Positions 1,146-25,324 of a stretch of DNA of 26,347 nucleotides are shown here, in pieces. The stretch comes from Physocladia obscura (Eukaryota; Chytridiomycota; Chytridiomycetes; Chytridiales; Chytriomycetaceae). The translations under genes were made by a program, and so were the position numbers. The DNA lies in the NCBI GenBank assembly GCA_027596945.1, contig JADGJH010000181.1, positions 1 through 26,347 on the forward strand, written 5' to 3'. How positions within the stretch are numbered: position 1 is the stretch's first letter; the number at the start of each line of letters is the position of its first letter. The notes below the pieces were generated by a model. It searched no databases. It saw only the letters and a program-made list of their open reading frames with translations, and had not been told where the DNA came from.

Positions 1146-3170
1146 TCAAACTTTGACTGCAACAATATTACTATATGAACCAGTTGCTCCACTGCTTGCC
1201 ACGCCACAAATTCGATACGAATAAATATTGCCTTCAATTACAGAATCCTGGTATACCAAGTTCCCACTTGCCACTGCATCACTAACTTCATCTGCAATAT
1301 CCCCGAACTGATCCAAACTAGACCCTGCCCCTGCCGTCAGATTCCCAATCCCTCTCTGAATAGTATAACTCTGAGCTCCAGCACTCCCCATCCAGACTAA
1401 ATTGACCGTTCCAGAAGAGCTGCCGTCCACTGATACGGATTCAACGAACAAATTTGGAGCCTGGATTGGCGGCGAGCCAAACAGTCTTGTTCCAACACCA
1501 ACGCTGATGGACGCGTTTCCCGAAAAGTTTTTTATTAATTCGATGGTTGAAACTTCGTCTGCTGAAAATCCAATCCCTGCTGCCGCGTCTACGTTGAATC
1601 CGGGCAAGTGATAGCTTGAGTAGACTGTGTCTTCGTGGTGATTCCAGAATCCGCCAAATCGAGAATGGAATCTGAGGCTCCATATCAATGCACCAGCAAC
1701 ATTCACGCCATTGTTGTTGTTAGTGTTTGTAACAGCTTTCAAAAGCTCTGAGTATTGTGTTTGTGATGAGAGACCGTATTCGCCAACGTAGAAAAATTTA
1801 CTCTTTTCGAGAGCTGTGCTCTTGCTGCTGTTGGTTGCTCTTGCAATGAATTCAACATCTTTTTGAAAACGTTCCGCATAGGTTGGATAGTTGTTTAAAA
1901 GCGTGGCGCCAATACTCATCAAGGCGATTGCAGCAACAAGGGATAGGATTGCTGTGATTACTGTTGAAAAGAAGATTCTCTTAATCGTGGTTTTTCGTTG
2001 ACCAAACTCGACTTCTTTTGAATATGACTCATTTGAAAGACTTGTGGTCTGCATGAGTTCTAATTCAATAGCAGTTTCGTGTATGGCAACAGTGCTTGCA
2101 GTTTTTCTAGCACCAAAGCAAATATTGCCAAACATGAATTTCCTACTGCCGAACATGAATTTCCATAACGACTGAGTGGGATCTTTCATGTGTATACCAA
2201 GAGCCTTTGGTCTCCACAACATCATCACACAAATACAAAAAGCCACCACAAAAATCGCAGCAAAACATGCTCCAACAACAATAAAAGAATAAGCCTCCGC
2301 AAGCAAGCTGCCAATCTCATAATAATGACCAGTGAATCCATCAACGGCTCCAAAAACGTTAGGATCCCATCCATAAAGACTGTAACTCCCATCTATAACT
2401 CGCTGCGTGGCGCCTGCTGCTTTGATAGCCGCTACGACCTGTAAAGTCCACGTAGCAGGTGGAGGATTGATATCGCCATCATCGTTTGTAACATGCAGCT
2501 CGTTCCCAGTTTCCCAGGCGTATATGGCTGGGTCGGACGCGTATGTTTTCCCAGTAATGGAGTTTTGGCGAGAGACGATATACGACGAGAGAGCGAGAAA
2601 ATTAGATATTATGTTCGGAGACCAGTAGAAATCGCTAGTATTTGTAGTGCTGTGCATTGCGCAGAAGGCCGGAATGCCGCCCCACCTTTTAGGTAGCAAT
2701 TTTAACTAAAATAAGTGAATCAAAGTAAGTATTTACCAGGCCCATTGGTCAATAAGAGGAACAATAATTTGCACGCCGGTAGATGCAGCGACGGCAATGG
2801 CGGAGTCAAGAGCAGCAAACAGGTTGTCGTTTGCGTAGAGGACAGGGGCGGACGTATTTTTAATTGCAGACCACGAATAGTTACAGTTAGCGGATGCATA
2901 ATCGACGGTGGCCACGTGGAATAGCGATGCTTGCAATCCCTGGATGGCCACGGGGTAAATGCGTGTGACTGTGCTGCCAATCTGTGCCAGTGACGACAGC
3001 GCGTCTGTTTGTTCAAACACCGTTGGAATCAGCCACGGCGTCTGGTCTTCAATCAAGTGTAGATTCGGCGTGTTGAATCCAAAAAACTTCCGTGTTTGGC
3101 TTTGCGTCGTCTGCGCCTGCTTCCGGTTCTCATTTGTTTGGGTCGTTGATTCTGAATTCAGATTTGTCAT
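1146..3170 (-). CDS. GH5 mannanase-like glycoside hydrolase with a two-helix membrane insertion and C-terminal Fn3-like domain
   Basis: Two exons, 3170-2737 and 2685-1146, join across a 51-nt GT-AG intron to give about 657 residues; the join restores IDQWAWWGGIPAF. Known GH5 landmarks are visible: GFNTPNLHLIED at the first strand (about residue 31), WETGNEL with the acid/base Glu near 207, GHYYE near 264, FFYVGEYG with the nucleophile Glu near 447, then GALIWSLRFHS and FWNHHE. This suggests a retaining endo-beta-mannanase or related beta-glycosidase. Between HYY and GEYG lie two hydrophobic helices (about 276-302 and 382-405) with a polar loop of about 80 residues holding a doubled KFMFG. The last 105 residues resemble a fibronectin type III fold. 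No signal peptide follows the chosen ATG. An upstream ATG near 3277 opens a different frame, so the 5' end and an extra exon remain open. Substrate is inferred only from family resemblance. Confidence 0.8.
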
Positions 3171-7044: not shown

Positions 7045-10000
7045 CGCAACGAGAAACCGTGGCTGGACTTGCATACTGTAAATCACCAACTTCAAATAGC
7101 AAAGCCACATGCTTTTGAAGTCGTATTCGTTCACCATTTGGAAGAGTCAGCAACTTGTTATCATCCATTACCGAATTCATGTTTTCAACCCATACTGCAT
7201 CAACATCTCCATCAAAAACAATGTATTTTCGTTCTTTTTTGTCTGTTGGCTTGTTGGTTTCACGAAAAATATTTGACAGCAGCCCATCTGTCCAGTCTCG
7301 AGTAACTGGATCCATAATTCCATATAGCTCGGCAACAGTTACAGCTTTTGGATTCAACAAATATAATTTCGTTGGAATTCCAAGTTTTGTCTGGGACTTT
7401 GCCAGGGTATCGATTACAACTGTCTTTCCACCTAAAAAACTGCATTTTTAGTGGCTAAAACATTTAATAGATATATTTATAACCTCCTGCTGGACCGACC
7501 ACCATCGTGGTATGTCTTGTAAGCATTGTTTCATATAGTTGAACAACTTTATCAACTTGATCTGGGAGCATTATGTAATGCCCATCTAGTAATACTTCCT
7601 CTACCGCATCGTTAAAGGATGGGTACCTCACACGTGGGCAATCTAATCCCGGGAAAAGGTCATTTATCAACCCAAGGAACAGTGGGACGTCATCGAATAC
7701 GAATTTTGGTAAGTTCATGTCACGCAGGGCTCTCATCAAAACAACATCTTCATTTAAATCAGGTGATCCTCTTTTCAAGCTTCCTGCCATTACAAGAACA
7801 GATTTTAAAGCACGGAGGCCAAAATCGTAATGATGCTGTTTTGACAATTGACCCTTCGCCAATTTGTAAAGAACCACCATTTTTTTGGCCAGTCCTTTCG
7901 CCATTGTAAAACCTTGACATACTGGTGAGTTAAGGTAGATATCAAAACAAACATACCTTCCGAAAAGAGCATATTTTCGCAAATAAGCTCCAAATCTGGA
8001 ATGGCCATAACAACAGGCCGGAACAGAGCTTTAAGATTATCAGGCAATTCAGTTCTTCCCGCGTATCCCGGATTCATACTGTAGATTTCGGCAGTTAAAA
8101 AAAGTTTCTATCAATAATGTACTCATACGTAATGAAAATTCCTGTTTTTCTATCTAAGCCAATTTCGTTTCCTTCAAACTGAAATCGTTTTAATCCCATG
8201 ACCAGTGCATTTTGTATGGTTTTAATTTGAGCGGAAATGACAGAAAGAACGGCAACTAATAAAATTCTGTCAGAAAACGAGCACAGCAATAATTTCAAAC
8301 TTACGAGGAATACGATTGAATTCATCAAAGCACCCCCAAGCGCCAGTTTGAACTAGTCCAGAGAAAATTTTTCCCATTGCTTGAAAATCTAATCCCTCGC
8401 CACAATTTGTCACCATACAAAGTAATCCAAGAGCTTTGGCTAGATCTTTAACTGTTTCAGTCTTTCCCGTCCCGGCAGGTCCTAAAATAAGCATAAGTCG
8501 TGTAAAAATGGAAATAGGAAAGATTGGCACCTGCTGGTGCGCCACCAAGTTTCATTGATAATGCCTGAGTTAGTGTAAGATAGCATCTATCTGTTAATGG
8601 TGTGATAACTAGCCGACCATTAAGACCCATATACTCATATCCATAGTCAAAAACTCCAGTACATTGTCGGACAAGAAGTTCATCAGCTGTCCGATCCCAA
8701 TAAAACCGCAATTGTGACTCCCATTCAAATTCAGACTCATCCATTATGGAATCACGTACAAATTTATCCACAATATCTTTTGCATGAACGTCAATAATAA
8801 TTTGGGAGTTAATTTTCCTTCGATCATTTGTTGACAAATCCGAACGAACTGCCACAACAAGCTGCTCCAATTGTTCAACAAGTGTCTTGGCATATTTTTT
8901 CATAGCCAACTTATTTCCATTCTTGATCTTACGGAACACATCTTCGACTTCAAATGTCCACCAAACCTGAGCGCCTGCCAACCCAACCATTCCTTGATAG
9001 GTATAAAGCCATTTGGTTCTTTCCATAGAAGCGTAGTAGAACACAGCTTCTTTGTGCATTGTTCTATTTGTTCGTTTCATTTCCAGTTCAACTGCAGCCA
9101 TCCATTCTTCAACTCTTCCTTCAACTGGCACCACTTTTCTAAAATCCAAGGTTTCATTTTCGGATGAACTCATACCAACAACAGCTTTTTCATTTTTTCC
9201 TGTTCCAAAATTTAATTTCATCACATTATCATACATTTTTATGATATGTTCTTGAACATTTTTCGGATCATGGCTTCCCAAAATAGAAAGCAGCTCCTCA
9301 TCGGATATAAAGAAAAATCTTGGAAATGCGTTTCTCTTTGATTCCAGATAATCAGATAACGATTTTTGGCACGACTCAAGATCGTTTGAGAGATTTCGCA
9401 AAAGTTCGAGTCGACCTTCTGCATTGCATGCATCAATAACAAGACTGTGTTTAGCGGTTTCACTCATAATTTTTTTGAAGGATTTATCAATACGATCGAA
9501 CTTTGCGGCCTCTTCGGGCAGCTGTTGTCTGATATCTCCAGCTCCAATAAAAATTGATTCAAGATACATCCATTTCCTTTGTACAACCATCCATACTTCT
9601 GTCACTTCTCCAATGTGAGACAGCACTTTTTCCCATTGTTGCACAACAGGCAAAAACGCTGTAACAAACCTTGAGGCCCCCATACTTTGCAATGCCATCG
9701 CATTATCATCCAGCATCAGTGTTATCTCATCTGTTGCACCCAAAATAAATCCTCTCTCCTCTATGCCCTTCATATATTTCGAAACAGTAAACCTGGTATT
9801 CTTCCAAGTTGTTTCTACTTCTTTCAGGCCATTTTCAATGGATAATTCTTTCATTGCACCATTGACAATTTCCCCAATTGATTCAGAATGCTCGTTTAAA
9901 TGCATTGAAAAAAGTTTTTCGAGAGTAAATGTTTCCGGATTCATGTCAAAAGTTTTTCCAGTAATGTCCATAAGTTTTTTCCAGTGTCTTTCCCGCAGAG

Positions 10001-13000
10001 CTTCATTTTTTAAATCAGCAAAAAGTGGAATAGAGTCTTTAAAAGTCACAATTTTTTCTGCCACGACATTGTAAGGAGGCAATTGTTTTAGTTCCTTTGG
10101 TAATTTTTTCAGTCTGGCAGAGAATGTTTCCACGCCTTTGGTCAACACGTTGATATCCAAATTTGACCACAGAGTTGTTGACCAGCCTGTAATTGCTGTT
10201 TTTACCTCTGAATATAACTCATAAATTTTTTCCAAATCTTTGATTTGTTGCTCCAAATCAAACAATTCGGGGTATGATGTTATATTCAGATTAAATAATT
10301 TCTCGGCTTGAACGAGTTGCTCCCGCTTGGTAAGAAATGACAATGTAATCCCATGAGCTTCTTTGAGCATAATAAGGCCCCGATCCATATCATCGTCAAT
10401 AACGCCAGGTCCGTTCAAAGAAAAGTCATCTTTAAATATTTTTAACTCATTTTTGAAATCTTTAACTTGATTTTGTGTCGTTTCCGTAAATTTGGCTTTG
10501 ACTGGAATCAAGGAGTCATCAACTTCATTCGCTTTACGAATCATATCTGCCCACAACTCAGGCAAGCTGTTTGCGGCAACAAGCTCGATTTCCTCACATT
10601 CAATATTATTTAAAGTGAGTGTTCGGTAGGCTTCCATCACATCCAAATATTTGAGTTCTATTTCTTCAGAAGATCTGCGTATGTCAGCAATAATGTTTAG
10701 AACAAATGTGAGATCATCCAATGTTTCCGGGGTTCTTTGAAGATCCTCTTCAAACCTTTGAACTTTTGCTTGAATAGCAACAAGTCCCTCAGAAGCCATT
10801 ATGTTCAAATGCTTTCCTACGCTATTTATAAGTAACTAAATCTTTAAATTACTAGAAATACCTATAGCTAAGATCCATCCATGTGCTTCATTGCGAATAG
10901 CGTTTTTTAAAGGACTGGATACTATTTTCATAAAGTCAATGTCTCTAACATTTGTTTGGCCATCGACATCTTTTTCCAGCTTGGAATAAAATGATATTTT
11001 GTCATCATATTGTACAACAGATGGTTTTTTGAGTGCAAATTTTTCAAGAGTAACAACCTAGGCATAAAATAATGAGATGAATTGTCAAATTAGACGATAT
11101 AATAGTTTCACCAAATTACCAGACCTTATCAACTTTCCATAAAGGTCTGTACTTTCTCCAAGTATCAAGCCATCGGTTCAAATTCACAAAGGTTTTACTG
11201 ACAGTATTATTCAATTGAGACACCATTGCAATCACTGCCACATTACAAACAATGTCCGAATGAAAGCTAAAAATTATCGGATCTTGATCATCATCAATAC
11301 GTTGTGGAAGTGTGATAATGCAAGTTCCATGCATCCATCGATGAAATTGCTTTGTACTATCGACAAGAGAACGCGCAAACTTCACAATCAGTTTATAAAT
11401 TTCGCCAGACAATGGTGATATCACGATTTCAGGGACAGATAACGAAGCAGAAACTTTAAACAGTGGTGCAGCACGCGCCTTTGGTTTGGCGAAATGGGTG
11501 CTAGATCGAAGTTTTTTCAGGTTATGATTCAATAGAGCTTCAAGAAATTGAAGGTTATTCATTAAAAGCTGGATTTTTTTTTCAGTGGCGATTTTACAGT
11601 TCAGACGCAACTTACAAAATTTAAACTGTTGAAAATCCGCCTTTCCCAGTAAGCATAGTAATCTTTCAGCATTTTGCTTTTACCCGTATTTGTTCCAGCA
11701 ACAACTGACTCCATCTTGATTAATAGTGGTCCAATACTGCTGTATTTTTGAACTGTCGCTTCTAGGGAGTTAACTCGATGTTTATTTAAAAAGTCGAAAA
11801 ATTCCTGTGTTTTAAATGTTATCGAGTAAAAGTACAGTTTCATTCGAGCTTACATGCGCATCCAAGATATCATCAACAGCAGGCTCTCCAACCAAAAGTG
11901 TGTGCGCAATGCTTTCGACAGCATTGGAAATATTAGAACTATTTTTTTGTATTTGATTTACAATAGATGAAAGCTTGTTAATCTCCTGATTGCATCTCAA
12001 AATAAACTCTGATATTCCAAGAGAATTCCAGTTGAGCCGTGAAAATCCCGGTTTCAAAACCCGCTTAAGTTCACTCAATTGATCAAAGAGCAACTTAATT
12101 TCTGCAGAATCAAGTAATTCGGTTACAGCATGATAATTATTCAGCATTGTCGTAAGATTCTCAACAAAAGTGTAATATTTTTCCTCCTAGAAGTATTTTC
12201 AGCAATATTTACCCAAAATTTTATGTCACCTGAAGTGCTACATTCAATGCACATTCTGGAACAACATAACCGAGTTTATCAAGATACTTTGTTTCTTTTA
12301 TTATTTCTTTTAGTTCAGGTCGAAAATTGACTTTGATCTTCTCTGGTGTGGATATGTTTTCAGATGGTAACTCGTTTCCAGTGGAGTATCCAGATAAATT
12401 ATTAATCTGTTGAGTATTATCTTTTACTAATATGTACGCTTTCAGGCATTGAAGCGAATTTGCTTCCACTGTTAAGCACCATTGAGTATATAACTGAATA
12501 AAACTTTTAGTTTAAACTTTGAGACCACGAAGTAATACATTTTCTTCATATTCTCGCATAGATTTTGCTACAATTAAATACTTTCGGGTAACCGATCGTC
12601 CCATTTCACTGGCAAGCATTTCTGTTGTTCGGTTTAATAGTGGTAGAGAAAAGGCAATTTATACCTTGCAGTGATTGAAATCTCACAATAGTTTTTTTAA
12701 TACGATAAAATAAAGAACGTGACCAAGCAATAGCTCCCGCAAATTTTGGTTGATTTTTAGTCACAGGTGGATTTCCTCTATTAAAAGAAAAAATTAGTAA
12801 AGTTGGTTACAAAAAAAAAATCTACAAACAAAACCTATTGCTCTTGAAGATTTCATCGATACTATCTACTTCCCTTGAATACTGATCTAGAATCTCATAC
12901 CATTTACCCATCAGCTGAGAATTTATACTTTCACGCGATTTAATATTTTTAATATTTTGAAGTAAGTCAAATGCACCCTCTGCACTTCTCAGCTTTTTAA

Positions 13001-15711: not shown

Positions 15712-17751
15712 ATGGTTGTCAGAGCCACCACCGTCACCACCACAGTTGCAATTACCACTGCACTTATTGCATCTACTCTTCTTGTTGCCGTTTCTGACGC
15801 TGCATGTACAAACCCAATTGTCCGCAGTGAATGGAGCCAACTTACTGCCGACCAGAAATCCCTTTACGTAGCAGCAACACAGGCTTTGGCTGCCAGACCA
15901 GCTAGTGGCCAGTACGTGGATCCCACGCAAATGGGATGGGATGACTTTGTTCAAACGTGAGTCACGAGAAAAAGATATTCCCAACTAGCACTTATTTTTT
16001 GAAACACCTGTGCCACCTGAACCTGTCTCACACATTCATATAAATAGACACTCTCATATGGCATATTGGGCACACGTATGTTTTTGCAGATTTTCTCCGC
16101 AATTTCCGGATACATTAACTTTTGAACAGGGAAACGCACAATTTTATCCATATCACCGCGCCCTCATGTGGAACTTCGAGCTCGCGCTCCGTTCCACAGG
16201 AATCTGGCCTTCTACAATAGGTGTGCCCTATTTTGACTGGTCCGCTATGTCACAGAACTGGTGGACTTCAGACATTTTTTCTACGGATAATTTTGGACCG
16301 ATCAATAACGCAGATCCTACCACAGCACCCTGTGTTGTAGAAGGTGCATTTGCGTGGCACACTGTTGCTGATGATCCTGACAAGCATCGTGTTATTACCA
16401 GTGGGAATTTGACGTGTCTGAGAAGGAATGCTATACAGACTGCTATGACAGATGCAACTACTATTTCGGAATCTTTGTCAGCAACGTCCTTTGTTCAATT
16501 GACTCGGTCAGCGCCAAGCGATTATTATGATGTTCGTGTTTTTGTTGTCGTTTTTTGCAAATTTTTGTGTTCAAAAATTTATTTTCTTATAGACTACCAA
16601 CTATCATGCTGACGGGCATGCAGTTTTTGGTGGTGATGGTGGTGATATGGCAAATGCTGCAGTTTCGCCGAACGATCCTCTTTTTTATTGTAAGTTATTC
16701 TCTTAGGGGAAAAAAAAAAAAGAAGGAAGAAACTCATCATAAAACCAAAAAAGTGCACCATGGCTTTGTGGACAAATATTGGTGGAGATGGCAGCAACTT
16801 TGTCCATCATTTGTGACTGATTATGAAGGCAACTTGGAACGAGCTGACGATCCGATATCAGGAGGATCCACAGTTGCAGATTTTAATCAAACATTTGACT
16901 CGTGGTCAAACTTTATTGTTTGGGACATGCTCAACACGGAGGGTGACACATTGTGCTACACTTATAGTGCATCAGCTGGAGATCTCGCCATTCCTGCTGT
17001 CACCTGCCCAGCAGTAGCTGCAGTTAATGTCCCCGCCACCACCACTTCCAGTGTCAGTGCTACATCTGCTGCTGCTGCCGCTGAATCTGCGGTGGACAAC
17101 AGCTGGGTTGATGCTATTTTTATTACTCTTATCGCTTCTACGACTTTTTCAGAAAACAACACATCAACGGTTATTTTTGGGCGACGAGACATTAGAGCAG
17201 ACGCATCCACTGTCAATAGAAATATTACGACTAGCGATGCCGCAATTATTGAAATTAAAACCGCTGAAGCCAAAAGCGACTTCGAAAATTCTCAAGCCAG
17301 CAATACCGTTGATTCTATCAACACCATCTCTACATCTACGGCTACTAAATTGACGTGGACGTTCACGCTTAATCCAGATAACTCTTCAACAGTGTTTTAT
17401 ATTGGTGCAGACCACAATATCACTGTTCCTGCAGGATACTCCATCAGCGAAGTTTTTCGCGGTTCAGTTACTGGAATCAACAAGTCAACGAGGAAACCAA
17501 AACGCTTTTTTCCAGAAGTTGGAAGTATAGTGTATGTGCGGCATCCTGATACGCCGGTGGTCGTGGTTCCGGGAGAGCACCCATGTCATTTAGCGGCACC
17601 AATCTTGCTTAAAAGTTCATATATTGAAGCGATGGGTATGTCATGGGCAGTTTATTTGAATGCACATAACGTTGAAAAAATGAAAATTGATGCTTTCAAC
17701 ATCAACAATTGTACGACTTTGTCTTCCCCATCGTCAATGATGAACCAGTGA
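15712..17751 (+). CDS. Secreted tyrosinase (type-3 copper protein)
   Basis: Tyrosinases oxidise phenols to quinones and feed melanin synthesis. Five exons, 15712-15956, 16048-16075, 16130-16531, 16593-16689 and 16754-17751, join in phase to 589 residues. Residues 1-30 form a Sec signal peptide (TTVAITTALIASTLLVAVSDA). CuA ligands are His83 (DFVQTH), His91 (YWAH) and His100 (GNAQFYPYHR); the His91-Gly92 join across the 16076-16129 intron recreates the family pattern AHGxxQFxPxHR. CuB shows NYHADGH (His230, His234), VFGGDGGDM and DPLFYLHHGFVD (His259/260), split by an intron after TAT-T. After the catalytic domain comes an Ala/Ser/Thr-rich linker and a C-terminal region of about 280 residues with PGEHPCHLAAP and many N-x-S/T sites, as in long fungal tyrosinases. 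The second exon is only 28 nt. A divergent promoter is shared with the dynein. Confidence 0.92.
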
Positions 17752-17898: not shown

Positions 17899-20800
17899 TC
17901 AGGTCCACAAAGATGGATCAAACCCTGCAAAATCCACAATTTCGTCATGTTGTTCAGTCTCGCCAATCAATCCTGGAACTGAATATGATAACTTGATTCG
18001 AAGCTTGACAACAGTCTTTCAATTAAATACAATACTTTTAAAATTTCGCAAACAACATCAAAAATATAAAAAGCCAACCTTCGAAGGGTTTTCAATACGC
18101 ATAATTTGAACAGCCGAACCACCAGCAGAAATCGATGTTGATGACGGCGGTTGCATAGTCAGCTTAAGACTCTGTAAATTTTTTTTTAAATACAAAATTA
18201 AAACAAATCAAAGTTACAAATTTGAACAACCTTGGGAACAGCAACTTGAAATGCTAAGCCAGTAATCACTCCCGAAAACCTTGTGTTCTCAAACTTCGCA
18301 GTGATACTCAACGCTTGTCCGTTCTCCAAACGTTCCGGGGCTAATTCGATACGCAAACTGTTCTTTTCATAACAAGCGAGATATTTTTTAGTCTGTGATT
18401 TCACGGGGACTGAAGAAGCTGAGAACAAAGATCCAAATGGATCTGTAGGTTGCGTTTGAACTTGAGCAGGAGTGGCACTGAAATTTGAAATCAGAGGCAC
18501 AATAGTTGTCGGATTGGGTCCAAACATATCACCCAAAAGATCAACGGAATTATTAGCATTTTGAGGCAGTGCTTTTTGCGAAGGCTGAGATGTGAATAAT
18601 GGGATTTGCATTGTTGGAAAAGATGGTAACGCTTGTGTTACAGAGGATGGTGGCCCAATTGATAAACCTCCAAACAAATCCATGATCTTTTCACAAATGT
18701 TAGTTGAAAAATACAGAAACGAGAAGAAAAATGAAGAAAATAACATTACATCGTTTTTAGAGGTTGAATTTGTTGGATTTGAAGCACCGAATCCACCAGC
18801 GAAAGATAAAGACCCAAAAGCAGTAGAATTTGTTGCAGTGGTAGTTGCTGGATTATCACCAAAAACTAAATCAAGCAAATCATTTGCTGTGGTTGTTGAT
18901 GATGTCCCCACTTTAGGAGCAGCATTATTTGCGAAAATGTCATCACTAAAATCAAGTATATTTTCAGATTTTTGATTTCTTGAATGGTTCGTGACCGTTT
19001 GAAAAGATGGTTCGCCACGACCTTTTCGTGCCTCCTCTTTTAATGCATTTTCCAAAACTGGGACACTTTCAAGCAAAGCCGCTCTCGTGTCAGCATCTAA
19101 TTTGGTGATCGCAATAAATTCAACTGCCCGAGCCTGGATTTCAATATCCATATGAGTTTGGAATTTCGCGAGAAGAAATCGAATGAATCTGTAATTAACA
19201 AAAGTTAAAGTTTAAACCCAAATTAAATGAAACTGAATACCCTAAAACAGATTCGTCCAAGAAACGACCAGTCAATTTTGCGAGAGCTGTAACGATATAT
19301 TCTCTCACAACAAGCGTCGCAAAAGGCCCCTTTAAAATGTTATCCAAGAAGTCAGCAACCTGCTTTTCTGCTGGAACACTCATATAGTCTGTTTGACCCA
19401 TTGAATCTTCGTCTTCAACCCCACTACTATCTCCTCCTCTTACTAAAAGGTCACCAAATTCACCGACAGACCATACAGTCACAACTACCAGTCCTTCTTG
19501 CGCGAGTGCTTGGTCTCCTTCGAGCCTCACAAGATTATAAAGCTTTCTCACAGCATATAACTGCAAATCTTTGCTCGATGTTGTGATAACTTTCACACAG
19601 TGGTTGATTGTGGCGGCATCCACATTAGCTCCGGCAGCACGCATAACTCGAATTGCAGTGTCCATCTCCCAACGCTTATTTGGGCGGAACCTACCAGCAA
19701 AATCAACAATTCGAGCTGCCACAGATGACTTAATGTCAGATTCAGCAACTTCAAGAAACGAAAGAAGTTCGCGGGTGAGAATACGGATATTTTGGGAGTT
19801 GATCAAAAAGAATGACAGGTCGAGAGCGCGATGACGAATCGAAATATCGGAATCTCTAAGGCAATCTAAAATTGTCGCGCGATGTCGTTGAAGAGCAGAA
19901 GAATCGGCACTTAACGTGGTCTGAGATGTTTTGGTCAAAGTTGTCAAAGCAACATATCTGAGAAAATGTATAGTAATTTAAACTTTCAAATAATATGTGC
20001 CTGATTTTCTTTTAAAAACCTTATGTTGTTATCTTTGTTTGAAAGAAAGCGACCAAGAATGTTAATAGCAAGGACGCGAAGAGAATTTTCACTTTCAATA
20101 TCCATGATTGTCAAAACAGTCTCATACAAGATGGCATTTCCAACATTTTTTGATCCATCAGTATTGGTTGCGACTTGTGCAAGAATATCGTTCATTGCAT
20201 CGCTTGCAAATGACGAATCTTTTCCGAGAATACGCAGTAGTCGCAGAATTTTGACTTGAAGAAACGGATCTGTGATTCCAGAGACATCATGTTCTGGACT
20301 GTACCCGGGGGTTGTTAAATTTTTCAAATGACGGACCAAAACTGGGACGGAAGACTGTTCAATACAAATCAATATAAAAAAAAGTACATAAAGTCCGATG
20401 AGACCTTTCTTAATTCCTCAACGGCATTGTAGTCCAACTTGCACATTTCGATCAACAGAGTAACTCCGGTCAACAAAACACCATGATGTTTCTCACTCAA
20501 AAGACTGATTGCCTTGTTCAAATAATTTTCGAGCAAATCTGGAACTTTATGAATCAATCTTATCGCACATAAAGTCGCCTGCATTTATTTTGTTTACTTC
20601 AAAATTGGACATCAGTGTTTTGGAAACCTTTTTTCTGACAAATGAGTTGTTGCTCGCAATTAATTTCTCGACTTCCATCGACAGATCGCGGGCCATTTCC
20701 GGAGATGAAATATTTCCCAGAGTACAAAGAGCCAGACCAATAATTTGAACATTACCGTTGTTCATGTCGCTAACAACAATGACAAAAATATTTCGTTAAA

Positions 20801-23499: not shown

Positions 23500-25324
23500 A
23501 TGGATACAGGATCGTTTGTAGGAGGACTTGTTGCTGGTAAGTAGAAAGCGGTTTCCGGTATAGAAATGAATGATTGAATACGCTGCTGCGTGCCGTTTTA
23601 ATTCACGGAATGTAGGGCTCGCAATATGTATTGCCGTTGGTTTGTTCGTACGATTTGTGTTTGCGCCGCGAAACTCTGCCGTGGCGGCGGCGGCGGCGGA
23701 GCACGCGGTTCCTTTGTTAGAAGTCAAGAGCGATTCGGCCTTATTGCAGTCGCAAGACGAACCCAGCCAGGCGACTTTGCTGCGATTACAACATATGTTC
23801 GAAGTTACCGGTGACAAGCTCAGCCAAATCTCCAAGCATATGATGGCTGAAATGAAGAAAGGGCTGGCTTCAGATGAATGTGGTGAGTTTATCTGTCACT
23901 TTCGGGGCTATATTCTTGCTGTGTTCCTTTTTTATTATGCATCCTGGCTCATTCTTGCCTTCGCTTGCTAGCAATGAAGATGATTCCGACACACGTTGTT
24001 CGCAGACCAAAGGGTGACGAGGTCGGCTCTTATCTTGCTCTCGATTTGGGTGGTTCTAATTTCCGTGTCTGCGAAATTACTCTTGACGGTCGCGGTGGAA
24101 CTCGCTCTCGCCAGTCAAAGCATGTAGTTACCGATGATCTCAAGACTGGCACCGGTGCTGCTCTATTCGATTTTTTTGCTGATCAAGTCAAGCATTTTTT
24201 GATGAACGATGGCCAAAACGAGTATTCAGCCGAAGAAATTGAATCAAGAAATTACAAGCTTGGCTTTACTTTTTCTTTTGCTGTGAATCAAGTATCTATT
24301 AACAAAGGTTCTGCATATTTTAGTTTTTCTCTATTTCTTTGCTTATTTTATGATATAGGCTACCTTCTTCTCTGGAACAAGGGATTTTCTGCAGACAATT
24401 GCGTCGGGGAAGATGTTGTTCGTTTGTTGAGTGAAGCATTCAGACGAAAGGTATTTTAAATTCAATAAGTTTTAAAATTAGATTAGATAAACAAAACCAA
24501 ATAATTAGAAATTGAACATTGATGTAACTGCACTTGTGAATGATACAACGGGAACTTTGGTCTCCCACGCCTATGGCGCCCCAGATACTTACATCGGAGT
24601 TATTCTTGGAACTGGAACCAACGCAGCATACGTCGAGAAAGTCGAAAACATTACTAAATTCAAGTCTTCAGGCACTGCAAAAGATATGATTATCAACACA
24701 GAATGGGGAGCTTTCGACGACGAAATGGTTGTTATTCCACGTACGAAATATGATCACAAAGTCGATCGTGGTACTTCGCATCCGAAGACTTACACTTTTG
24801 AAAAGCTTATTTCCGGAATGTATCTCGGAGAAGTTGTGCGTTACGTTCTCTTGGACTTGGTCAAAACCGGAGAAATTTTTGTTGCTGGCGGTTCCGCTTC
24901 GAAGACATTGAAAATTCAGTACGCTTTTGAAACCGCTTATATGTCAAGAATCGAGCGCGACCACTCTTTGGATTTGTCAGATGTGCGAACAGTACTGGAA
25001 GACTTGATGCATATTCCATCAACTACTCTTGCAGACCGCCGTCTGACAAGAGCTATTTGTGAAATGGTTGGAAAACGTTCGGCCCGTCTATCTGCTGCAG
25101 CTATTGCTGGTGTTGTTACCAAAATGAATAAGCTGGATGGATGCACTGTTGGTATTGATGGATCTTTGTTTGAACTGTACCCACATTTTTCCAACCGCAT
25201 GAGGGATGCTTTACATGAAATTCTTGGTTTTTCTGCAGATAATATTGTCTTGGAACAAGCAAGAGATGGGTCTGGCCAAGGCGCAGCTTTGATTGCTGCT
25301 CTTGCGACATCAATCACTGAATAA
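23500..25324 (+). CDS. Hexokinase with N-terminal membrane anchor
   Basis: Hexokinases phosphorylate hexoses with ATP at the entry to glycolysis. Five exons, 23500-23536, 23616-23882, 23972-24307, 24359-24450 and 24509-25324, join in phase to 515 residues. Residues 6-28 (FVGGLVAGLAICIAVGLFVRFVF) form one hydrophobic helix followed by an Ala-rich spacer, so the enzyme is probably tethered to a membrane facing the cytosol, as in plant type-B hexokinases. The core shows DLGGSNFR (126-133), LGFTFSFAVNQ (about 199-208), NDTTGTL with catalytic Asp256, GVILGTGTNAAY, INTEWGAFDD, FEKLISGMYLGE and the adenosine-site GIDGSLFELYPHFSNRM. Two usual sugar-site residues differ: SFP reads SFA (Ala205) and WTKGF reads WNKGF (Asn220). 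It may be a glucokinase- or GlcNAc-kinase-like paralogue with altered specificity. Catalytic residues appear intact. Confidence 0.93.
23681..23702 (+). repeat. GCG trinucleotide run encoding alanines
   Basis: Several consecutive GCG codons within hexokinase exon 2 encode the Ala-rich spacer just after the membrane helix. This is a local GC-rich patch in an AT-rich gene and probably varies in length between strains. Confidence 0.7.

Follow-up and report, generated by a model that had tools for sequence, protein, structure and literature searches.

To our knowledge, the solved mannanases of glycoside hydrolase family 5 (GH5) that are nearest to the enzymes described here (8gf3, BlMan5_7; 1rh9, tomato; 3pz9/6tn6, Thermotoga petrophila; 4qp0, Rhizomucor miehei) have no membrane helices in the β6-α6 loop of their barrel and are secreted or soluble proteins. 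In this study, we report a GH5 gene of the chytrid Physocladia obscura, located on the minus strand of a 26,347-nucleotide (nt) window (contig JADGJH010000181.1, positions 1 to 26,347), whose product carries a hairpin of two predicted transmembrane helices inside the catalytic barrel itself. Membrane hydrolases related to the cell wall include KORRIGAN1 and Exg2, the anchors of which presumably lie outside the catalytic domain, unlike this in-barrel hairpin. Both KORRIGAN1 (GH9; excerpt of PMC13181414) and Exg2 of S. pombe (GH5_9; excerpt of PMC3526467) have a connection with wall material or with the synthesis of wall polysaccharides. The best functional analogy would come from the plant enzymes AtMAN2 and AtMAN5, which, according to the same excerpt of PMC13181414, are mannanases needed for glucomannan synthesis through their activity and which, like the hairpin proteins, are membrane-anchored and lack a signal peptide, as a transmembrane segment replaces it; however, their transmembrane domain is N-terminal, whereas the chytrid helices are found between strands β6 and β7. 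In GH5_14 enzymes, β-strand 1 is followed by a fascin-like insert (excerpt of PMC3526467), and these enzymes, like the hairpin family, illustrate that the barrel tolerates an inserted module, but one that sits elsewhere and is not described there as a membrane hairpin. Insertions into the barrel being known, it is the membrane hairpin within it that appears to be new as an architecture, and not the GH5 fold or the enzyme class. Note that a transmembrane hairpin dividing a glycoside hydrolase barrel was absent from the matches listed, which cover the open-licence literature only and are weak evidence of absence; GH5 mannan endo-1,4-β-mannosidases have been counted in chytrids in the excerpted text of PMC6690862, where helices go unmentioned and the species assignment is uncertain.

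The gene spans positions 3170-1146 (Table 1), and its splice reconstruction gives a protein of 657 residues with a single 51-nt intron; joining the exons restores the motif QWAWWGGIP, and the joined product is identical to the database protein P0001 (Physocladia obscura HK100_003288) retrieved by homologue search. A first-pass annotation of the window had proposed that the two catalytic glutamates flank two hydrophobic helices in one exon and without a frame break. This split barrel is confirmed, since both Glu motifs share the frame of exon 2 with two hydrophobic stretches between them (mean hydropathy of 3.01 at residues 280-298 and 2.51 at residues 382-400); to this we add that the intron interrupts the N-terminal half, outside the segment bounded by the Glu motifs. 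The polar loop, first estimated at about 80 residues, measures 83 residues between 19-residue hydropathy windows or 63 between the AlphaFold2 helices, and both the model and the alignment place the insertion where it had been assigned, between the strand ending in HYY (β6) and the nucleophile strand (β7). It had also been asked whether structure prediction would allow the two halves to meet. AlphaFold2 predicts that they do, as they form one complete and closed mannanase-type barrel in P0001 (predicted local distance difference test, pLDDT, of 86) and in a Spizellomyces protein (pLDDT of 95), with the (β/α)8 order of GH5 and clan GH-A in the predicted models, and the top structure matches of these models are GH5 structures over a range that spans both halves. 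The nearest structures and sequences are mannanases, as expected of a GH5_7-type endo-β-1,4-mannanase, and the GH5 matches of the profile search are mostly mannanases, found beside FN3 chains such as titin; these FN3 chains were matched by the alignment profile, while the fn3 Pfam matches in relatives stay below the cut-off.

Three homologue searches (about 8,000 candidates scored per search, with the best 120 of 1060 matches used in one of them) provided 227 proteins, which motif and hydropathy rules sorted into 40 with two helices between HYY and the nucleophile, 171 with none, 10 of neither class and 6 unclassifiable. Note that the helices were called by simple hydropathy rules, that the counts concern the fetched proteins and that the 40 hairpin proteins are mutually related and not independent. 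They originate from named chytrids (24 of 40) and from metagenomes (16 of 40), which bears out the earlier suggestion of a chytrid family, and the genera concerned are Physocladia, Entophlyctis, Rhizoclosmatium, Chytriomyces, Podochytrium, Obelidium, Phlyctochytrium (P. arcticum), Globomyces, Spizellomyces (P0132 in S. punctatus), Gaertneriomyces, Thoreauomyces, Batrachochytrium, Powellomyces and Fimicolochytrium; order names such as Chytridiales are used below as we assume them to apply. Physocladia itself holds a second copy with the same hairpin, P0002, at G000:C861:7354-9427 (L016, 5400-11000). Residues R70, N206, E207, H265, Y267, E447 and W480 are found without exception in the 31 hairpin proteins that were aligned, P0001 included, the residue check, the tree and one alignment having taken 31 of the 40 because nine models are fragmentary or odd; we take Glu207 to be the acid/base, Glu447 the nucleophile and the others further GH5 active-site residues. 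PF26410 is the family precomputed for the hairpin proteins and their bacterial relatives; P0001 has no Pfam family match, PF00150 (cut-off of 23.5 bits) is matched by P0130 with 41.1 bits over residues 43-361 and by P0136 with 21.4 bits, below the cut-off, and NCBIfam gave nothing over cut-off for the six proteins scanned. At the level of sequence and model, the architecture is thus conserved, keeps its active-site residues, is predicted to close into a barrel and is devoid of a recognisable signal peptide, and the family probably consists of active, membrane-tethered, GH5 mannanase-like enzymes of chytrids.

The bacterial PF26410 relatives (Planctomycetota, Paenibacillus, Ignavibacteria and others) resemble the hairpin proteins in their aligned parts (~27-47% identity), in their conserved catalytic residues and, for at least some of them, in an FN3-like C-terminus (weak fn3 match in P0015), but they differ in that a signal peptide is usual (128 of 144 scorable plain proteins) and a hairpin is absent. 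Indeed, in all 74 measured bacterial loci, the catalytic His and Glu are 27-36 residues apart with no hydrophobic stretch there (80 of 307 confirmed stretches were kept, of which 76 have the motif and 4 do not, and 2 more have no nucleophile match). Since helices occur at the same place in 40 of 227 homologues and in none of these 74 loci, the hairpin is more than a chance feature. In a quick tree of 71 rows, the 34 'bacterial' rows, which are plain non-chytrid proteins and many of them nameless, are located on one side of a branch with a support of 99. Because hairpin presence requires 2 changes on this tree and yet the AU test does not reject grouping the hairpin proteins in one clade (p-AU 0.473, with 10 of 71 rows flagged for odd letter composition), one gain and a gain with a loss are indistinguishable.

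A gene-model artefact, with the helix-coding stretch being an intron or an alternative exon, would be consistent with the Chytriomyces hyalinus model P0009, which is 43 residues shorter than P0005, mainly in the helix 1 stretch, with P0016 and P0021, which have one helix only, and with the lower GC content of the hairpin stretch (40.3% vs 47.5% in the rest of the gene), around which 6 GT and 13 AG sites make 18 in-frame pairs out of 78. However, we consider it extremely improbable: an intron at 1820-2330 was rejected because none of the 6 GT near the hairpin start is donor-like and because the helices, their position and their basic flanks are retained over the 40 proteins, in which the segment stays open and hydrophobic. 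As a side observation, the two C. hyalinus models may reflect a splicing variant or an annotation error.

With a confidence somewhat above even, we favour the reading of a chytrid GH5 family whose barrel, broken after β6 by the membrane hairpin, is exoplasmic and cuts mannan-like chains at the membrane. Both half-barrels and the FN3-like domain would then be exoplasmic, in the lumen of the endoplasmic reticulum (ER) or Golgi or outside the cell, the short basic loop would be cytosolic, and the hairpin would act as the sole ER-targeting element and as a permanent anchor. This orientation, with an outside barrel and a cytosolic loop, is preferred because the helix flanks are more basic on the loop side in 38 of the 40 hairpin proteins (1 tie and 1 opposite), with summed charges of 242 K+R and 37 D+E in the loop flanks against 82 K+R and 72 D+E in the outer flanks; among three unequal lines that would favour an outside barrel, this one is the strongest. 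In a TIM barrel, the catalytic face is formed by the loops that follow the strands. As the hairpin exits through such a β-α loop, the active site would be near the membrane; indeed, the hairpin would replace the loop after β6, beside the catalytic His/Tyr, so that the active-site opening may be held near the bilayer. The enzyme may cut or trim β-mannan-like chains there, for instance when they leave a synthase or enter the wall, and would not be shed for food digestion. Moreover, the N-terminal half would be unable to close the barrel before the hairpin is synthesised and may stay unfolded enough to cross once helix 1 reaches the translocon.

No signal-like stretch precedes the barrel in any of the 29 scorable hairpin proteins (P0001 included), compared to those 128 of 144 plain proteins (p 9e-22 if independent, which these related proteins are not); signal peptides were called by a hydropathy rule and not by SignalP, and 11 hairpin and 27 plain proteins were unscorable and left out. 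An exoplasmic barrel exported by an ordinary signal peptide, itself encoded by an unannotated upstream exon, would satisfy the positive-inside rule without unusual translocation, and the 5′ end of P0001 could be misannotated, its N-terminus having 28 residues vs 1-11 in the other scorable Chytridiales-type proteins. This explanation is nevertheless improbable, as no signal-like open reading frame (ORF) was found within 1.4 kb upstream of P0001 (three thresholds, introns of ≤400 nt), nor, in the 1.2 kb that precede P0002, any that has a usable donor (one threshold); at P0002, another same-strand open frame stops 8 nt ahead of the ATG. In addition, the 29 scorable proteins start 1-29 residues ahead of the barrel, also in long metagenomic proteins taken as uninterrupted ORFs. 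The open frames upstream of P0002 have no Pfam match. Three plain chytrid relatives (P0143, P0155 and P0159) contain a hydrophobic stretch near their N-terminus (best means over 12 residues of 1.73, 2.82 and 2.27), which is not the case for P0156 or the Synchytrium proteins P0145 and P0147 (0.85, 0.56 and 0.58). These two Synchytrium proteins, with neither hairpin nor signal peptide, could either work in the cytosol or owe this to wrongly annotated starts.

Several points weigh against an exoplasmic, active enzyme at the membrane. An active site near the bilayer is to be expected but is read from strand order and not from coordinates, and the substrate, activity and localisation of the hairpin enzymes are predictions from sequence, model and analogy. 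Among the nine proteins left out of the alignment, the gene model of P0008 is without the nucleophile stretch, P0018 is misaligned at one position and P0183 at two, and others end early. An outside barrel means that an N-terminal half-barrel of some 240-300 residues before helix 1 (median of 260 in 31 rows) must cross the ER membrane without a signal peptide, while the EMC is unable to translocate long or structured N-tails (excerpt of PMC10155758) and human multispan proteins with an exoplasmic N-terminus have mostly odd numbers of helices (excerpt of PMC13220792). The outside barrel with a cytosolic loop, which the first-pass annotation held to be topologically possible, is therefore supported by the basic loop flanks and at the same time burdened by an N-tail that is hard to translocate. 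Also on this side, cytosolic members of the family may exist, given the Synchytrium relatives, and the Cys and sequon contents are less favourable than they look at first sight.

The second of the three lines is a barrel poor in Cys, and the third a sequon excess in part of the hairpin proteins. In the three hairpin groups, Cys makes up 0.30%, 0.19% and 0.64% of the barrel and FN3-like domain, 0.75%, 1.95% and 1.04% of the loops and 1.97-4.51% of the helices. When the barrel and FN3-like domain are compared to the loop alone, the difference is clear in one of three groups (p 0.056, 5e-5 and 0.32) and rests on 6, 7 and 4 Cys in the loops; besides, the 178 other, mostly bacterial homologues, whose bacterial members are mostly exported, reach 0.74%, and the Synchytrium relatives 1.72% and 0.64%. 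In window ORFs that Pfam identifies as dynein, adaptin and hexokinase, which are cytosolic proteins, Cys reaches 1.03%, and in the plain chytrid relatives 0.19% (P0155 and P0159 each), 0.71% (P0143) and 1.6% (P0156). Once the loop alone is compared, Cys is thus weakened as a topology test. Sequons exceed their number in shuffles in the 14 Chytridiales-type hairpin proteins (100 vs 59.9), without enrichment in the remaining 26 (41 vs 40.6; 54 vs 52.0) or in four plain chytrid relatives, three of which have an N-terminal hydrophobic stretch (13 vs 14.7). The corresponding values are 1 vs 4.0 in the two Synchytrium proteins, 329 vs 350 in 101 other homologues, 12 vs 11.8 in the cytosolic window ORFs and 9 vs 6.0 in the tyrosinase-region window ORFs, which were taken as secreted with a Pfam match in one of the two ORFs. 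Since the enrichment concerns the 14 Chytridiales-type proteins only, sequons were not used alone as a topology test. Note that the metagenomic proteins P0037, P0045 and P0120 have fewer sequons than expected from shuffles (3 vs 9.1).

In the reverse topology, the N-terminal half stays cytosolic, the helices form a transmembrane pair with an outside loop, and the barrel acts at the cytosolic face of a membrane, where its substrate could be, e.g., a glycan that is lipid-linked or cytosolic. We consider this arrangement unlikely, while giving it real weight. It agrees with the absence of a signal peptide from all scorable hairpin proteins and of an upstream signal exon at either Physocladia gene, with Synchytrium relatives that look cytosolic and with the lack of sequon enrichment beyond the Chytridiales-type proteins. 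Moreover, the loops have 50 residues or fewer in 28 of the 40 proteins, a common size for exoplasmic loops of transmembrane pairs (excerpt of PMC13220792). In contrast, the reverse topology would make the basic flanks exoplasmic in 38 of 40 proteins, and it leaves unexplained both the low Cys content of the barrel (relative to the loop, in the one group where this is clear) and the sequon excess in the 14 proteins.

Extending the exoplasmic reading to the whole phylum, an in-barrel hairpin would replace the signal peptide, the N-exo tail of 240-300 residues would be translocated after its synthesis, and the barrel would close beyond the membrane only once the C-terminal part has followed, so that the split itself would leave the N-terminal half competent for translocation and would hold the catalytic face close to the bilayer; we propose this only tentatively, with a confidence somewhat short of even. 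A catalytic barrel that is threaded twice through the membrane in the middle of its fold and retains its active site represents an unusual solution to anchoring, in which two rules collide, since the positive-inside rule puts the barrel outside and the models of N-tail translocation keep a long N-terminal domain without signal peptide inside. Were the barrel exoplasmic, this family would offer an example from nature of long N-tails being translocated; were it cytosolic, the family would be a conserved exception to the positive-inside rule as well as a fungal GH5 enzyme bound to the membrane on its cytosolic side. With either topology, surveys of carbohydrate-active enzymes that rely on signal peptides could miss or misplace the hairpin enzymes. 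Because Spizellomyces punctatus, which bears P0132, is transformable (excerpt of PMC7213984), the topology question is directly testable.

The loop between the helices was also thought to link polysaccharide contact to an internal signal. This link is unsupported, since the loop is short (12-85 residues, median of 32 across the 40 hairpin proteins), variable and without a recognised domain, as no family exceeded the cut-off in the loops of the six hairpin proteins scanned. The hydrophobic windows start 10-31 residues (median of 16) past the catalytic His. As a side observation, a short juxtamembrane motif seen by eye, in which aromatic and basic residues come after a Pro, recurs behind helix 1 (e.g., window positions 2184-2225). 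In the Spizellomyces group, it is often accompanied by a Cys at the helix end, and it may represent a membrane-interface or acylation site. Five metagenomic proteins (P0037, P0045, P0120, P0122 and P0123) form a subgroup with very short loops of 12-25 residues. RsgI-type sensors, some of which reportedly bear glycoside hydrolase domains, have a cytosolic signalling domain coupled to an outside glycan-sensing part, and no such domain was recognised in the chytrid loops scanned. A receptor in which the barrel binds a glycan and the hairpin relays the contact to a cytosolic loop could be compared to the transmembrane RsgI factors of Clostridium thermocellum, which sense polysaccharides and signal inwards (excerpt of PMC12203970), and the recurrence of the Pro/aromatic/basic motif would suit it. 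It remains very improbable for the hairpin proteins in view of the loop described above and of the catalytic residues kept in all 31 aligned rows, which are enzyme-like.

Table 1. Features of the hairpin GH5 gene (window positions; residues numbered on the spliced protein)
Feature	Position	Strand	Description
Exon 1	2737..3170	-	Start codon ATG at 3170, residues 1-145; 28-residue polar N-terminus and first part of the barrel
Intron, GT-AG, 51 nt (GTAAAT...AAAAG)	2686..2736	-	Inside the N-terminal half-barrel
Exon 2	1146..2685	-	Remaining barrel, transmembrane hairpin, C-terminal FN3-like domain and stop
WETGNEL, residues 202-208, carries Glu207	2496..2516	-	Splice reconstruction and alignment
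HYY, residues 265-267, end of β6	2319..2327	-	AlphaFold2 and alignment
Transmembrane helix 1, predicted at 271-302, hydrophobic core 280-298	2214..2309	-	Hydropathy and AlphaFold2
Polar loop, residues 303-365, basic flanks	2025..2213	-	Partly disordered (pLDDT <50 at 331-366)
Transmembrane helix 2, predicted at 366-408, hydrophobic core 382-400	1896..2024	-	Hydropathy and AlphaFold2
FFYVGEYG, residues 442-449, strand β7, carries Glu447	1773..1796	-	AlphaFold2 and alignment
C-terminal FN3-like β domain, about residues 551-657	1149..1469	-	AlphaFold2 strands at 556-656 and profile match

The window contains other genes in addition to the hairpin gene. An open frame at 5-304 on the minus strand, open at the window edge and without a Pfam match, resembles what we take to be the endonuclease of a LINE-type retroelement. 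Exons of a dynein heavy chain gene (DHC_N2, AAA_6 and DYH2-5-8_CC) are located at 7467-10835 on the minus strand, an axonemal type being indicated by one match just below the cut-off, and further minus-strand open frames up to 14612 may belong to the same gene. On the plus strand, a tyrosinase central domain (PF00264, 45.4 bits) is found at 15989-16609, overlapped downstream by an ORF at 16531-17748 for which Pfam gave no match. Finally, an adaptin gene (Adaptin_N and Alpha_adaptinC2) lies at 18201-19977 on the minus strand, and a hexokinase gene (Hexokinase_1 and Hexokinase_2) at 23887-25321 on the plus strand.
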